Source: Glutamicibacter ardleyensis (lineage in GTDB: Bacteria > Actinomycetota > Actinomycetes > Actinomycetales > Micrococcaceae). From it: a stretch of DNA of 47,327 bases. The position numbers were made by a program, and so were the translations under genes. The notes beneath the pieces are model-generated. The model ran no database searches, was not told the DNA's origin, and saw only the letters and a list, made by a program, of their open reading frames with translations. Shown here in pieces: positions 5,449-36,112 of the stretch (the stretch's first letter is position 1; every line of letters begins with the position of its first letter). The stretch spans positions 1-47,327 of the forward strand of contig NZ_BMKX01000015.1 in assembly GCF_014644555.1 (NCBI RefSeq), read 5' to 3'.

Positions 5449-5946
5449 TTATTGCCACTCCTTCAAAAGTCCTGTATTACGTGCGTCGTAGGGGTCGGGG
5501 TTTGCGCCTGGCTCTTGCTCAAGCCAGAGCATGAATTTCCGTGGGTTTTCCGGTGCCGTCTGGGATACCCAAACAATGCGACCGTTCGAACCGCCAGCGG
5601 TACCGTCCGGGCCTGTAACGAGCTCACCGAAGTTCCCGCCAGCCGAGGGCACTTGAAGCCGCCAATCCGGGAAATCAATCAGCCCGGAACCGTGCTGTTT
5701 ACTCAGCCAGCGAACCTGCACGTTATACCAGCCGACGTTCACCATCGAATCCGTGACAGCAAGGTTCACTGTAAAACTTCCATCAGAAGCAGGCTTCACC
5801 ACGGCCGGTTCGGTAGGGATGACCCGCCCAGCAGACGAACCAACCGAATAAGTATTTAGTGCGTTGAGCTGGAAAATAATCTCAACCTCACGATTGGCCA
5901 TGCTCTGCGCCGTAAGATCCAAGATGGAACCAGTAACTACTGCCAT
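5449..5946 (-). CDS. Minor tail protein (165 aa)
   Basis: A beta-rich protein beginning MAVVTGSILDLTAQSMANRE, a pattern seen in small baseplate or tail-tip proteins whose Ig-like N-terminal domain (residues 1-105) docks on the tail. The C-terminal part (G-P-D-G-T-A-G-G-S-N-G then a Trp-rich end) could link to the fibre encoded next. Start: ATG with AAGGAGG 5 nt upstream. It touches the following deacetylase-like gene with no gap, which suggests the two are made and assembled together. Confidence 0.6.
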   Translation of the reverse strand: MAVVTGSILDLTAQSMANREVEIIFQLNALNTYSVGSSAGRVIPTEPAVVKPASDGSFTVNLAVTDSMVNVGWYNVQVRWLSKQHGSGLIDFPDWRLQVPSAGGNFGELVTGPDGTAGGSNGRIVWVSQTAPENPRKFMLWLEQEPGANPDPYDARNTGLLKEWQ

Positions 5947-5970
5947 GCCGCCTCCTTGTTAAATGCGAAA

Positions 5971-5991
5971 CCCACCGTGTTATTCGGTGGG
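5971..5991 (-). terminator. Hairpin over the stop codon of the 58-aa gene
   Basis: CCCACCG and CGGTGGG pair around a 7-nt loop that contains the stop codon of the upstream gene. TTTCGCATTT follows on the minus strand. It could be a weak terminator or attenuator. Confidence 0.45.
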
Positions 5992-6156
5992 TTCAAGTTG
6001 TGTTTCAAGTTCTTTATTGCGCTCAACCAACAGTTGGTTCTTCGCGAGAGCCTCGGCGTACTTCAAGTGAAGTTCTGCCAAATCTTTTTGGTATATCGCC
6101 AGCATCCGTTGATGGATCAGCAACTTATTATGATTTTCAATCTGAATTTCTTCCAC
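5980..6156 (-). CDS. Short coiled-coil protein (58 aa)
   Basis: The start is taken as GTG at 6156, because GGAGG lies 6 nt upstream and follows the stop of the fibre gene. A longer in-frame ATG would sit inside that gene without a ribosome site. The whole protein is one charged amphipathic helix (residues 3-55; L-A-E-L-H-L-K-Y-A-E-A-L-A-K-N-Q-L). A small helical protein between fibre genes could be a trimerisation aid or fibre chaperone. I do not recognise it. Confidence 0.6.
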   Translation of the reverse strand: MEEIQIENHNKLLIHQRMLAIYQKDLAELHLKYAEALAKNQLLVERNKELETQLEPTE

Positions 6157-30162: not shown

Positions 30163-30424
30163 TGAAATCACTTCCTTGCTTACCGTTAGTTTTGGTTTCA
30201 TAGCCCTCAGCAGTTGCACCTGCTGGGGGCTTTTCCGTTTCCGCGTACCAGGCTTCCCACGCTTGGGTGTAAACCTCGTTAGCTGTCCAGCGCGCTTCGT
30301 AGACCGCCCCGTACTGGTCAGCGTCACGCGGTGTCGCTTTCAACTTCCTGACCGCCGCATCAAGCTCGACGGTCCGCTGGTCAAGCTCGTCACGTAGGTC
30401 GGCGAGCGCTGGTTTCTCGCTCAT
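30155..30424 (-). CDS. Small early protein, coiled-coil (89 aa)
   Basis: Helical and charged (L-A-D-L-R-D-E-L-D-Q-R-T-V-E-L-D-A-A-V-R-K-L-K), with a Trp-rich middle (A-R-W-T-A-N-E-V-Y-T-Q-A-W-E-A-W). It is coupled to the Cro-like gene by an ATGA overlap. No family recognised. Confidence 0.55.
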   Translation of the reverse strand: MSEKPALADLRDELDQRTVELDAAVRKLKATPRDADQYGAVYEARWTANEVYTQAWEAWYAETEKPPAGATAEGYETKTNGKQGSDFNV

Positions 30425-30675
30425 GCCGTCTTCTTTCGCTCTACATCTTGTTCAGCAAAATCTGACACATGAGTCAAAAAAAGATCTTCGACACCGACCC
30501 CCAGGAACTTCGCAATGCGAAGGGCAGGTTCAGGTTCCAAAGTCTTCACTTCTCCGTTTACTAGCCGATTCATGTAGCTATGGGACTTCCATCCGGCGGC
30601 CTTTGCTAGGCCTCGGTTTGATATGTCCTGAACGATCATGAGTCGCTGGAGCATCTTTCTGTCTCGGAGTTCCAT
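30421..30675 (-). CDS. Cro-like HTH repressor, first gene of the leftward unit (84 aa)
   Basis: ATG 30,675 has GGAGG 7 nt upstream. A further in-frame start 14 codons earlier lacks one. Residues 10-60 are an XRE-type HTH (L-A-K-A-A-G-W-K-S-H-S-Y-M-N-R-L-V-N-G, then E-P-A-L-R-I-A-K-F-L-G-V). It is the first gene leftward from the switch region and faces the repressor, so it is the natural Cro counterpart. Confidence 0.75.
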   Translation of the reverse strand: MELRDRKMLQRLMIVQDISNRGLAKAAGWKSHSYMNRLVNGEVKTLEPEPALRIAKFLGVGVEDLFLTHVSDFAEQDVERKKTA

Positions 30676-30738
30676 CCAGAGACCTCCAATTGCTCGGGGG
30701 TGTTTGACAATGTTCACTGTACCGCCTCTCGTTACGTC

Positions 30739-30882: not shown

Positions 30883-30924
30883 CATTGCTTGATTTGCCAC
30901 TTACATCTAGTCCAAGGTTGCTCT

Positions 30925-31542
30925 GTGAACGAAATCCACCCACTTGGGGAGTTGCTCCAAGAAGTCATGGACCGCAATAGCTGGTCACTGAGGGCACTGT
31001 CCTCACGAGCAGATAGCTTGGGATTCAAGATGAGCCATTCAAATTTTGGCCGGCTCAAAGACGAACCTGTTTCGAGCATGAAAGGCGAGACAATCAAGAT
31101 GCTCGCCCGAGTGCTCAAGGTTTCAGAAACTCGAGTAGCTTCCGCTGTTCTAGCTTCAATGGGGATCACTCCCGGCTCAGACGATGACCAACAGGGCCTG
31201 GTTGATTTCGTTCGCACTTCCAGTGAAGTGAGCGCTCGTGATCAACGGATACTACTATCCGTGATCGACGCGATGCGCGAGGACGAAAGCGAAACCAATG
31301 GACAGCAAGGCAACTACGATGCTCACCCACCTCGGCCACTCCGATCGGTGGCGCCCACGAGTGACACTAGCCAGGGACAGAAGACCGACCCCGATGACAG
31401 CATCATCGAATTCCACGGTGCCGAAGCTAAGAAGTACCCGGCGCCACCTATTGAATCTTTAGCAGCACACCCGAAGGTGAAGACTGTACGAGAGCAGCTC
31501 GACGAGCACGATGAGAATCAAGCTCCGGAGAGTGATGCGTAA
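30925..31542 (+). CDS. Immunity repressor, HTH type (205 aa)
   Basis: The start is taken as GTG 30,925 with AAGG 7 nt upstream. A TTG 36 nt earlier has no ribosome site. Residues 1-75 form an XRE-like HTH (L-R-A-L-S-S-R-A-D-S-L, then S-N-F-G-R-L-K, then I-K-M-L-A-R-V-L-K-V). Residues 90-205 are polar, low-complexity and acidic. No LexA-type self-cleavage Ser/Lys pair is seen, which fits removal by the ImmA-like protease encoded downstream. The stop overlaps the next start (TAATG). Confidence 0.78.
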   Translation: MNEIHPLGELLQEVMDRNSWSLRALSSRADSLGFKMSHSNFGRLKDEPVSSMKGETIKMLARVLKVSETRVASAVLASMGITPGSDDDQQGLVDFVRTSSEVSARDQRILLSVIDAMREDESETNGQQGNYDAHPPRPLRSVAPTSDTSQGQKTDPDDSIIEFHGAEAKKYPAPPIESLAAHPKVKTVREQLDEHDENQAPESDA

Positions 31543-32462
31543 TGGCTGACATTGAGATTTTCCCAGAGGTCATGGAGGCGCATGTATTTCGCGCCGAACT
31601 CGTCAAAGGTAATGGCCGAATCACTCCAAAGCCTGCGGATTGGGACGCGCTACTTTCCGGATTGAAATCAGAGCTTACGCTCAAGGAGCGAACTGTCGAC
31701 GGATACATTTTCGACCCAATCGAAATTTCGGGAAGAATGCTCCTGGGCGTGCATAAACCACTGTCGATTGATTTCATGACCAAAATTGATGATGAGAGCC
31801 AGGACGTCGGGAACTACCTTAGTGAAAATACCGACTCCACTATTCGCTTCGCTTTTTCAAGCTTAGTAATGTTCTCCGACATAGATCATGTGTTCGCTAT
31901 GGCTCGCGGGTCCCGCGAGTCACCCCATCACACAGCGGTCGCCAAGTTTTTTCGGTCATTCATTCATACTCCTGACAAGTACCGGTGGGTGGTAGAACCT
32001 TACATGGCCCCCGACCAGATACATGAGCTTGAGAAAGCCAAGGGGCTCAAGAAATTCCAAAGCAGCTTCACGACCCCTAGAACGCTCACCGACATGAAGG
32101 AAGGGCAAAACGGTATTATGACGTTCGCTCAACAGGTAGCGAATTCAGTCGGTGTCGAGTTGAAGTTTGACCTGAAAGTGCAGATCGCAAAAGGCCACTC
32201 TTCCAGTAACGCCACCCGAGCGCTTCTTGATCTGTTCAATCGAGATCGACGCGAACTCACGCGCCCCGACTCGCGGGCTAAAGCTCAAGCGGTTCTCCCT
32301 GGCGGACTAGAGGAGGAACTAAACTTAGTAATGCACAACATGGCCTTCTCTTTCGAACTCCCAATGCTGAGCGACGAACAGAAAAACTTTACTCAGTTAG
32401 GACAGGGGCTTCTCGACGGCAGGGAAGAGCTGAATAATGAATTACGACAGGGTTCAGAATAG
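31542..32462 (+). CDS. Unrecognised 306-aa protein coupled to the repressor
   Basis: Soluble, mixed alpha/beta. Residues 10-110 contain F-R-A-E-L-V-K-G-N-G-R and a strand-rich R-T-V-D-G-Y-I-F-D-P-I-E-I. Residues 105-135 hold V-M-F-S-D-I-D-H-V-F-A-M-A-R-G, and Y-R-W-V-V-E-P-Y-M-A-P-D-Q-I follows near 160. The C-terminal half is helical. No known motif or catalytic triad was identified. Its ATG shares the A of the repressor stop, so it is probably expressed in the lysogen. It is followed by a four-helix membrane protein. A superinfection-exclusion or defence role is inferred from context only. Confidence 0.75.
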   Translation: MADIEIFPEVMEAHVFRAELVKGNGRITPKPADWDALLSGLKSELTLKERTVDGYIFDPIEISGRMLLGVHKPLSIDFMTKIDDESQDVGNYLSENTDSTIRFAFSSLVMFSDIDHVFAMARGSRESPHHTAVAKFFRSFIHTPDKYRWVVEPYMAPDQIHELEKAKGLKKFQSSFTTPRTLTDMKEGQNGIMTFAQQVANSVGVELKFDLKVQIAKGHSSSNATRALLDLFNRDRRELTRPDSRAKAQAVLPGGLEEELNLVMHNMAFSFELPMLSDEQKNFTQLGQGLLDGREELNNELRQGSE

Positions 32463-32489
32463 TAAGACCCAATTGGAGGTGACCGAAGA

Positions 32490-32993
32490 ATGAAGAAAAC
32501 TATTTTTCAAGACTTTATTCTCCGGCGCCCACTAGTCGATCAGTTGGTTCCGATCCTTGCGCTGGGAGTGTGGCATTTCGTGTTCCACGGACAGGTCCCT
32601 GGTACACCCGCAGCTCAATCGGCAGCTTATGTTGGCCTTTCGGCTGTAGCCGGAATCGTATTGGCAGCTGCCACATTTGTCTGCACCATGCTGTACCAGT
32701 CAAGCTCAACGTCCGTAAAAACGCTTCGAGATAAATTTACCGGCGAATTAGCAAAGAACTGGACCTCAATATTCGCGTTCATTTTCGTTGCTGCCATACT
32801 ACCTATCATCGCCACGCTCCTGCAGGACACTCACAATGCGCTCGCGTTCGGCTTAGCCTTATACTCTGGCGCAATTCTATTTAGCCGGAGTTTCCGCACA
32901 TACCTCTGGCTCATAGTCTCGTTCCGCCTAGAATCCTCTCCGGAACCTCCGACAAGAAGTGCATACGAAACTAGATTGAAGCACCGAGCCTAA
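32490..32993 (+). CDS. Four-helix membrane protein of the accessory module (167 aa)
   Basis: Hydrophobic helices at about residues 18-35, 45-68, 91-111 and 116-146. The loop between helices 2 and 3 is basic and polar (S-S-T-S-V-K-T-L-R-D-K-F-T-G-E-L-A-K-N-W), and the tail is short and basic. Start: ATG with GGAGGTGA upstream, 27 nt after the preceding stop. It pairs with the unrecognised 306-aa protein, an arrangement found in several two-gene exclusion systems (for example the four-helix KwaA plus cytosolic KwaB of Kiwa). No sequence match to KwaA is claimed. Confidence 0.75.
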   Translation: MKKTIFQDFILRRPLVDQLVPILALGVWHFVFHGQVPGTPAAQSAAYVGLSAVAGIVLAAATFVCTMLYQSSSTSVKTLRDKFTGELAKNWTSIFAFIFVAAILPIIATLLQDTHNALAFGLALYSGAILFSRSFRTYLWLIVSFRLESSPEPPTRSAYETRLKHRA

Positions 32994-33552: not shown

Positions 33553-34908
33553 ATGAACACCTCTAGCAAGACCAGGCGCAACAACAACGAAGGCACAGTT
33601 CCACGCCAACGCAAAGACGGCCAATGGCAGTCCAACTACATCGCAGGATACCTACCCAGTGGAAAAGCAATCAGGAAATCTGTCTACGGATCCACACGTG
33701 CGAAATGCGCTGCCAATCTCAAAGCCGCGCTGCTCGAAGTCTCCGACGGCACTATCACGCTCACACAATCACCCCGACTCATTGAATGGCTAGACCATTA
33801 CCTGAACGTGATCGCACCAAACAGCATCAAAGAACGCACCATCAACGCACACCGCTCAAAAGTGGACAACTACATTCGTGGCCATCGCCTTGCCGGCAAA
33901 CGTCTAGACAAGATCACCCCGTCAGACATCGACGTGCTGTACCAGGACGCGCGGGGGAGTAGGAAACGAGCGAACAAAAGCTCCAAAGTCACCGACCCGT
34001 TATCACCAAGTACCATCCAGGGACTTCACCGCATCCTCCGGCGAGCGCTGAATGTTGCTGTGAATCGTGGCGTGTTGGTGAGGAATCCTGTGCTTCGGGT
34101 GGAGGTCTCCGGGAAGTCTGATTTTGAGCCGCAGGTTTATATGACTGATGAGGTTCGCCAGATGTTGGCTTTGGCTGTGGATATGGATGACGGAGCACGG
34201 TGGATCTTGAATCTTACTCTGGGCCCGAGGCAGGGTGAGGCGTTGGGTTTTGCGTGGCCTGACATTGATTTCGAGAAAAGTACTATCAAGCTTTCGCGTG
34301 AGGTCTACAGTCTGCCGTGGAAGCACGGTTGCGGGGGAGTGGCGGGAAGTGCTGGGGCTTGTGTCTATAAGTCCGCGTGGCGGTGCCCTGAGCGCCATGG
34401 TGGTGGTTTCTTCACCGGTCCACCGAAGAGCGCGGCCGGTTATCGCACGTTGCCGATACCTACTCAGTTGTCGGCAGCGTTGAAAGAGCACCGTGAAGTG
34501 CAACGTCTGCAGCGCTCACGAGATTGGGCGCCATATGTAGACCAAGCAGGGAAGTCTCACGAGCTGGTGTTCTGCAAACCGAACGGGCAACCAACGGACC
34601 ACCGTGCGGACTGGCAAGCGTGGAAAGACTTCTTGGCGGCGGCGAACGTTCCAGACGGCCGAGTGCACGACGGCCGGCACACCGCTGCCACCACACTCCT
34701 GTTGCTCGGAGTTGAGCAGCGCGTAGTCATGGACATTCTCGGTTGGTCTCAAAGCTCCATGCTCACCAGGTACCAACACGTCCTCGACGAGATGCGAGAT
34801 GATGTGGCCACGAAACTTTCAAACCATTGGACCCCGGAACCTGAGCCGGAAAGTAACGTCATCTCGCTTGCAGACGTCCGCAAACAACGCCTTAGTGGCG
34901 GTGCCTAA
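33553..34908 (+). CDS. int: Tyrosine integrase (451 aa)
   Basis: Start at ATG 33,553 with AAGGAGG 7 nt upstream. The longer in-frame reading covers the previous gene. Residues 1-50 form an N-terminal arm-binding part. Residues 75-175 are the core-binding (SAM-like) domain. The catalytic domain has R226 (G-P-R-Q-G-E), H372-D-G-R375, and the nucleophile Y407 in L-T-R-Y-Q-H-V. A Cys/Gly insertion, C260, C270 and C278 with H258/H282, may bind zinc. Third-position composition changes at about 34,030 (C/A-rich before, T/G-rich after) and again at about 34,500. It catalyses integration at the neighbouring tRNA-Arg. Confidence 0.93.
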   Translation: MNTSSKTRRNNNEGTVPRQRKDGQWQSNYIAGYLPSGKAIRKSVYGSTRAKCAANLKAALLEVSDGTITLTQSPRLIEWLDHYLNVIAPNSIKERTINAHRSKVDNYIRGHRLAGKRLDKITPSDIDVLYQDARGSRKRANKSSKVTDPLSPSTIQGLHRILRRALNVAVNRGVLVRNPVLRVEVSGKSDFEPQVYMTDEVRQMLALAVDMDDGARWILNLTLGPRQGEALGFAWPDIDFEKSTIKLSREVYSLPWKHGCGGVAGSAGACVYKSAWRCPERHGGGFFTGPPKSAAGYRTLPIPTQLSAALKEHREVQRLQRSRDWAPYVDQAGKSHELVFCKPNGQPTDHRADWQAWKDFLAAANVPDGRVHDGRHTAATTLLLLGVEQRVVMDILGWSQSSMLTRYQHVLDEMRDDVATKLSNHWTPEPEPESNVISLADVRKQRLSGGA

Positions 34909-35011: not shown

Positions 35012-35060
35012 TTGGATTTAGTACCCCCGGCCGGATTCGAACCGGCGACCTAGAGATTAG
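35000..35060. other. Candidate attachment-site region at the tRNA-Arg 3' end
   Basis: The integrase gene is next to the 3' half of the tRNA, the usual target. The exact core cannot be set without the other attachment site, which lies outside the window. The terminator on the phage side of the tRNA is consistent with a core that extends past the tRNA or with a phage-supplied terminator. Confidence 0.4.
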
Positions 35061-35095
35061 AAGGCTCTTGCTCTATCCAGCTGAGCTACGGAGGC
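35022..35095 (-). tRNA. tRNA-Arg (anticodon TCT)
   Basis: Minus-strand cloverleaf of 74 nt without encoded CCA. The acceptor GCCTCCG pairs with CGGGGGT (two G-U pairs, at 1-72 and 4-69). D arm GCTC/GAGC, anticodon loop CTTCTAA, T arm CCGG-TTCGAAT-CCGG. The anticodon stem AGAGC/TCTCT has one C-U mismatch at 31-39. The weak pairs could mean that the phage supplies a slightly different 3' half, or that this tRNA is normally so built. Confidence 0.9.
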
Positions 35096-35200: not shown

Positions 35201-36112
35201 ATGCAGCACTGGAGAATTGATGGTCTGAAAAGTATCTCCTGCTTTACGGTTCTCAGTTTTGCTTTGGCATGGTTAGTGGCCCTCCCACTGTGGCAAGGAG
35301 GTGGCTTACACCACCCGCAATTCACCTGGATAGCCATGGCAATGATGGTAACGCCGACTATCGCAGCAGTGGCCGTTAGTTTGCTTCAGCGCCGAGGAAA
35401 ACAGTTCATTAAGGAATCAGGTCTCGCTCCGATCCGTAAGCCCAAGCGATTTCTCCTCGCTGTCCTCCTTGCGTACCTAATTCCCATTCTGCTTATCGTT
35501 CAAGCACCATTTATCGGCACGTGGCTCGGGGTCTTTCCGGGCGACTTTGATCAGTTCATGATCCTTAAATTTGTGTCGGGAACCGACGGGCCTGTGAGGT
35601 ATTTGCTTGGACAAGCCGGGCTCATTCTTGTCGCCGGATTGCTGAATTTGATCCCGGCGCTCGGTGAAGAAATTGGTTGGCGTGGGTGGCTCTGGCCAAA
35701 ATTGCAGCCATTGGGTCAGGTGCCAGCACTGCTGATTTCGGGCGTGATTTGGGGACTATGGCACTCCCCGCTGATCTTGTTGGGTTATAACTACCCCTTT
35801 GCCAAGGACGGTTGGGGAGTAGTGATGATGTGTGGAATGTGCATCGTTGTCGGAGCGTTTTTTGCCTGGTTAAGGACTCTGAGTAATTCCGTTTGGCCTG
35901 CAGCCTTTGCTCATGGAATCTTCAATGCCAGCGTCGGGCTGGTATCCCTATTCATGATCATGGGATCCATGCTCGACACAACGAAGGCCTCTATTCTCGG
36001 TTGGTCGGGTTGGATACTGCCAGTTGTAGTCATCGTGTTGATGGTATTAGCCGGCGCTTTCAGAGCCACCAAGAGTTATCCACAAATGGAATCGAACGAA
36101 CCGAGCAACTAA
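35201..36112 (+). CDS. CPBP-family intramembrane protease (303 aa)
   Basis: About eight hydrophobic segments. The motifs E-E-I-G-W-R-G (residue about 165), G-L-W-H-S-P-L (about 190) and H-G-I-F-N-A-S (about 240) are the conserved active-site elements of the CPBP (Abi/CAAX protease-like) family. Members process prenylated or other membrane proteins, or give bacteriocin self-immunity. Start ATG 35,201 with AGGAG nearby. It is the first host gene after the prophage and does not look phage-borne. Confidence 0.85.
   Translation: MQHWRIDGLKSISCFTVLSFALAWLVALPLWQGGGLHHPQFTWIAMAMMVTPTIAAVAVSLLQRRGKQFIKESGLAPIRKPKRFLLAVLLAYLIPILLIVQAPFIGTWLGVFPGDFDQFMILKFVSGTDGPVRYLLGQAGLILVAGLLNLIPALGEEIGWRGWLWPKLQPLGQVPALLISGVIWGLWHSPLILLGYNYPFAKDGWGVVMMCGMCIVVGAFFAWLRTLSNSVWPAAFAHGIFNASVGLVSLFMIMGSMLDTTKASILGWSGWILPVVVIVLMVLAGAFRATKSYPQMESNEPSN

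Follow-up and report, generated by a model that had tools for sequence, protein, structure and literature searches.

What is the role of two adjoining genes that lie directly behind a phage-type repressor? Such a pair, here called X and Y, is carried by Glutamicibacter ardleyensis on contig NZ_BMKX01000015.1, the whole of which (47,327 bases) is referred to as the window. A preliminary description, made from the DNA letters, had proposed that the two genes could be a new exclusion or defence system coupled to the repressor, with Kiwa as an analogue. The best explanation, given a probability of about 0.88, is that the pair represents a putative phage-exclusion system of the RexA/RexB type, from a remote actinobacterial branch. 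The core of the earlier proposal is supported, both by the co-occurrence of X and Y in 15 of 17 genomes and by the RexA-like fold predicted for X; the word "new", instead, was too strong, because the closest kind of system is represented by lambda RexAB and by the Rex-like pairs of actinophages, neither of which that description mentioned.

Relationship of X to RexA

As for X, the window protein had no match up to an E-value (E) of 10 in Pfam, PHROGs or PADLOC, in agreement with the earlier remark that it contains no recognisable motif; the PADLOC scan covered the window proteins, and the PHROGs scan these and the X protein of Gordonia phage RavenCo17. Relatives came from three overlapping sets of whole genomes, all within its class, which together gave 17 distinct genomes with an X match; in a 16-row alignment they share 14-28% identity with the window X.

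The relationship with RexA emerged from profile comparisons. Lambda RexA alone matched a profile of 10 X proteins with E 0.0051; when RexA was represented by an eight-row family alignment (lambda, one Hafnia phage, one Salmonella phage and five plasmid relatives), the value was 1.2e-5 for the 10 X proteins and 3.4e-7 for 16 of them, the latter with a probability of 93 over 206 columns and an alignment starting near both N-termini. RexA matches occurred in 19 phage and 39 plasmid records; nine besides lambda were taken from among the matches listed, and two of the nine, one from a Klebsiella phage (76% to lambda) and one a short gene of an E. coli plasmid, did not enter the alignment. As a control, the RexA columns were shuffled 200 times: the highest shuffled score was 24.6, the real profile reaching 55.7, and the reversed profile scored 13.2. 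These values argue for a sequence relationship between X and RexA, and the structural model points to a RexA-like fold, so that the fold comparison suggested in the preliminary description led to an immunity protein. RdgC, which the RexA study reports for RexA, was not among the 50 VIA matches listed, which carries no weight.

Regarding the family models, DUF6731 (PF20505) matched two of the 16 X relatives, L022 with E 1e-8, above the cut-off, and L027 with E 0.0055, below it; the window X had no match to it. Because of these two matches, part of the DUF6731 family, whose function is unknown, may be Rex-like. A DUF6731 search in 396 genomes of the phylum gave no match, and the family could therefore not be broadened in this way. 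The window X had no match among plasmids and phage records; scans of viral contigs found no relatives with X alone, with Y alone or with the set from the 8.5-9.9-Mb genomes, and the set built on viral contig L035 recovered L035 itself.

Two side observations concern RexA itself. Proteins identical to that of lambda occur under odd names, in "Campylobacter phage CJLB-4" (48,361 bp) and in the Salmonella plasmid NZ_CP082339.1, whose 48,502 bp equal the length of lambda; lambda DNA may have been present in the samples, or the records may carry wrong labels. In the tiny plasmids pLAO57 (L051; 3.3 kb, E. coli) and pYR5 (L053; 5.2 kb, Yersinia ruckeri), the gene after a RexA homologue encodes a protein that shares 27% identity with lambda RexB in the alignment, and RexAB-like pairs therefore extend beyond prophages.

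Pairing of X with a membrane protein

In 15 of the 17 genomes the gene immediately after X, in the same orientation, encodes a small membrane protein, which is the co-occurrence that the preliminary description had proposed to look for. In G120 and G671 no X-Y pair was present in the short loci examined; their matches are marginal and partial (E 6e-4 and 7e-4, over residues 119-162 and 140-241 of the query), and it is doubtful whether they are X at all. The paired membrane proteins have from two (L020) to four helices as counted by script, and for L025-L027 the membrane character was judged from sequence and alignment. Since the identity of X is so low, the pairing has outlived most of the sequence likeness. 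One of the 15 paired X genes, in G421, has an in-frame stop. This broken X is that of L019/L033 (Bifidobacterium catenulatum subsp. kashiwanohense), where Y is open and an open reading frame (ORF) resembling a C5-methyltransferase lies near; either the gene is decaying or the stop is a sequencing error.

The pair was also reached from the other side: a five-row Y profile led to four loci on genome contigs (Cellulosimicrobium cellulans, Bifidobacterium moraviense, B. catenulatum subsp. kashiwanohense and Brachybacterium endophyticum) and to two viral contigs, L035 and L036, and X precedes Y in all six. These loci are not independent of the 17 genomes, as three of them appear to correspond to G437, G421 and G318, which had contributed Y proteins to the query profile; in addition, viral contig L036 and L034 have one and the same pair, and the X of B. 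catenulatum is the broken copy. Cellulosimicrobium (L031) and the viral contig L035 are new.

Base rates were estimated on 113 ORFs of 200-420 amino acids (aa), taken from the window and ten 20-kb loci. Eight of them are closely followed by an ORF of 130-220 aa with at least three helices, and all eight are X; with at least two helices ten pass, at least eight of them X. The eleven sources contain 11 X, and the strict three-helix test misses those of L017, L019 and L020.

As for Y, the four hydrophobic helices of the preliminary description depend on the threshold: four windows (14, 50, 93 and 117) are found at a hydropathy cut of 1.2, three at 1.5 and two at 1.8. Most Y proteins share a conserved (R/K)NW stretch in the segment that links helix 2 to helix 3. 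By its position, size and helices, rather than by proven descent, Y appears RexB-like, and its profile similarity to RexB is weak (values below). Pfam matches of Y below the cut-off (DUF2776, 1.1e-4; ABC2_membrane_4, 0.028) were taken as general membrane-helix similarity, and a PADLOC match to RTasSLATT (0.96) as noise.

The locus and its settings

The features around the pair are collected in Table 1. All the coordinates of the preliminary description were borne out: the repressor stop and the X start overlap at 31542 in TAATG, with one A common to both and the two genes on the same strand; X and Y have the lengths given there, with 27 nt from the X stop to the Y start; and the ImmA-like gene comes next, after a gap of 78 nt.

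Table 1. Features of the window around the X-Y pair
Feature	Position	Strand	Library match or remark
Window (whole contig)	47,327 bases		part of a 3.94-Mb genome
Divergent small helix-turn-helix (HTH) protein	30421..30717	-	HTH_26 9e-7 (Pfam); phrog_3 transcriptional repressor 3.5e-7
HTH immunity repressor	30889..31542	+	phrog_12831 transcriptional repressor 2.2e-8
X, putative RexA-like soluble protein, 306 aa	31542..32462	+	
Y, membrane protein at rexB position, 167 aa	32490..32993	+	weak RexB profile similarity
ImmA-like metallopeptidase, 133 aa	33072..33473	+	phrog_87 metallo-protease 3.6e-13
Tyrosine integrase	33553..34908	+	Phage_integrase 2.1e-17

The mechanical ORF of the repressor opens at TTG 30889, and GTG at 30925 is the likelier start when compared by eye with the repressor of L017; a PADLOC match of the repressor to capH (0.0024) was taken as a plain HTH match. 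By its position, the product of the divergent small gene would be Cro-like. The ImmA-like ORF matched Pfam Peptidase_M78 with E 0.0015, under the family cut-off, and more likely serves repressor control rather than exclusion. The presence of repressor and integrase suggests that the region is a prophage. Just past the integrase, on the minus strand, there is a tRNA-Arg (tct) at 35021-35095, possibly the attachment site, in which case the Rce1-like ORF at 35201-36112 would be chromosomal.

Outside the window, neighbours were assigned by eye. The order repressor, X, Y and ImmA-like protein is common to the window, L004, L017 and L025, an HExxH ORF occupying the ImmA-like position in the latter three. 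The recombinase that comes next differs: the window has a tyrosine integrase, L017 a serine-recombinase-like ORF. Behind the X-Y pair of L031 there is an ORF resembling a tyrosine integrase. Other settings are the viral contig L035, where the pair is placed after amidase- and holin-like ORFs, L018, with an Abi_2-like ORF nearby, and L019, with the methyltransferase-like ORF mentioned above.

Weighing the explanations and comparison with known systems

Several results weigh against a Rex-type assignment. The Foldseek TM-scores (template modelling scores) of X are 0.43/0.47 and 0.34/0.38, all below 0.5, with root-mean-square deviations of 12.3 and 4.0, and the model is poor over residues 156-266 (mean predicted local distance difference test, pLDDT, of 59). 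The single Pfam RexA model matched none of the 16 X proteins, and in the PDB sequence search RexA ranked only fourth, with E 0.35; the three matches above it (fusion glycoprotein, PepE and MamB) are short and belong to proteins of unrelated kind. X did not match a profile of Butters gp30, Toast gp42 and CarolAnn gp44 (E 0.16), two of which come from pairs with defence proven in print. On the Y side, the profile comparison with RexB gave a weak match (E 0.0081), which scored 21.8 where the highest of 100 shuffles reached 17.8, and that with the Butters, Toast and CarolAnn partners scored 24.7, hardly above shuffles at 23.4. X is also rare, with relatives in four of 147 related genomes, own genome included, in 10 of 396 genomes of the order (four-row profile) and in seven of 394 of the class (ten-row profile). 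Finally, L026 and L027, whose genomes measure 8.9 and 9.9 Mb, show no repressor beside the pair within the short stretch examined, and a scan for promoter- and terminator-like sites found none above chance.

The Kiwa analogy drawn in the preliminary description relied on parts of the same kinds, a membrane protein with four helices plus a soluble one of about 300 aa, and KwaB does occur in three of the 147 related genomes; a Kiwa-like system, with X as KwaB and Y as a KwaA-like membrane sensor, is nevertheless very improbable. The likeness stops at the kinds of parts: the X profile gave E 0.43 over 28 columns against a three-sequence actinobacterial KwaB profile, and Y gave E 0.42 against one KwaA-like protein. 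KwaB (PF16162) has no match in the window X, the 16 X proteins or the own genome, nor was there a PADLOC match for the window X. In L038-L040, the KwaB matches in relatives, each is preceded by a membrane-protein ORF (KwaA, named by position), whereas here the membrane gene is second; the absence of a DUF4868 pattern and the reversed order had been conceded at the outset, and both hold.

A RexA fold could also serve another job, with X and Y mainly tuning the prophage switch and protecting against nothing. Adams et al. (PMC11077077) report that RexA can influence the bistable switch of lambda in the absence of RexB, and the pair here sits within the immunity cassette; X-Y pairs, however, are also found away from a repressor (L035, L018, L019, L026 and L027), and a switch would not obviously need a membrane partner, which makes this reading unlikely. 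That X and Y are accessory genes adjacent without joint function is least credible of all: Y is indeed hard to connect to RexB by sequence, but the two stand together in 15 of 17 genomes and in the six loci reached from Y, and in the base-rate test at three helices only X ORFs have such a neighbour.

By analogy with published relatives, it is fairly likely that X activates Y in the membrane. X would be made in the lysogen and would sense infection by certain foreign phages via either phage DNA or an early phage protein; it would then act on Y, probably at the central loop, and Y would depolarise or permeabilise the membrane, so that cell growth would stop and the infection abort. The window pair would be expected to work by this mechanism in its host. 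A broader and rather doubtful proposal is that repressor, X, Y and ImmA-like protease are one cassette moving between prophages with different integrases, in which the RexA-like protein would read phage DNA or an early protein both to activate Y and to tip its own repressor/ImmA switch; in that case, part of DUF6731 and RavenCo17 gp42 would belong to the same machine, and RexAB would be widely spread in actinobacteria.

The kind of system is known, and the window X falls outside the models of Pfam, PHROGs and PADLOC in the scans made here; among the papers listed by searches of the open-licence literature on RexA/RexAB, Butters-type defence and Kiwa, none concerns this branch. RexAB is known chiefly from lambda, and to our knowledge its trigger is still unsettled. 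Diverged relatives that keep the gene order, both in prophages of actinobacteria and in a Gordonia phage available in culture, would provide new test systems. Because the window X had no match in these libraries, plain scans would miss such RexA relatives, suggesting that some "hypothetical" proteins and some DUF6731 members are among those missed.

The cultured phage is RavenCo17 (OP434446), where gene 42, annotated as "hypothetical protein", overlaps the end of the immunity repressor gene 43. Its product matched the X protein of L031 (E 9e-5, 20.6% over 86% of the query) and phrog_10865, of unknown function (E 1.8e-5). Between gp42 and the integrase (L041, locus 5452-6142), a stretch of about 690 bp in which no gene is annotated holds the start of a Y-like membrane ORF of 332 aa, which runs into the opposite-strand integrase gene and whose first 200 residues were aligned with Y; the record probably misses a gene.

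Compared with lambda, the order cI-rexA-rexB corresponds to repressor-X-Y, and the membrane partner is small in both (144 aa for RexB, 167 aa for Y). The differences are that X overlaps the repressor stop, while lambda has a 112-nt gap; that an ImmA-like gene follows the pair; and that X falls outside the PHROG and Pfam RexA models, with Y only weakly RexB-like. In the RexAB of Pseudomonas putida prophage P1 (PP_5643/PP_5644), similar by description, a RexA-type DNA-binding protein is joined to a membrane effector, and RexB is reported to damage the membrane when stimulated by RexA overexpression (PMC12894663). Adams et al. purified three RexA homologues, including Toast gp42, and report them to be DNA-binding dimers, the binding by Toast gp42 being non-specific; they also state that DNA binding is not strictly needed for exclusion (PMC11077077).

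Among actinophages, the pairs of CarolAnn (gp44/gp43), Sbash (gp30/gp31), Butters (gp30/gp31) and Toast (gp42/gp41) have a soluble and then a membrane protein, as X and Y do. Those of CarolAnn, Sbash and Butters are presented as prophage-mediated defence in PMC6426606, PMC6426596 and PMC7542560; for CarolAnn and Sbash, the respective authors suggest that a sensor activates a four-helix channel, and those who studied Sbash consider activation by DNA unlikely for their pair. The soluble proteins of Butters, Toast and CarolAnn (403, 337 and 370 aa) are longer than X (306 aa), and Toast gp42 is related to Butters gp30 (25.1%, E 8e-21); on the profile values, X appears closer to lambda RexA than to these three. 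In arrangement, the CarolAnn and Toast pairs stand behind the repressor, as X-Y does, and in Toast gp42 and gp41 are followed by gp40, annotated as a metallo-protease, like the ImmA-like gene after Y.
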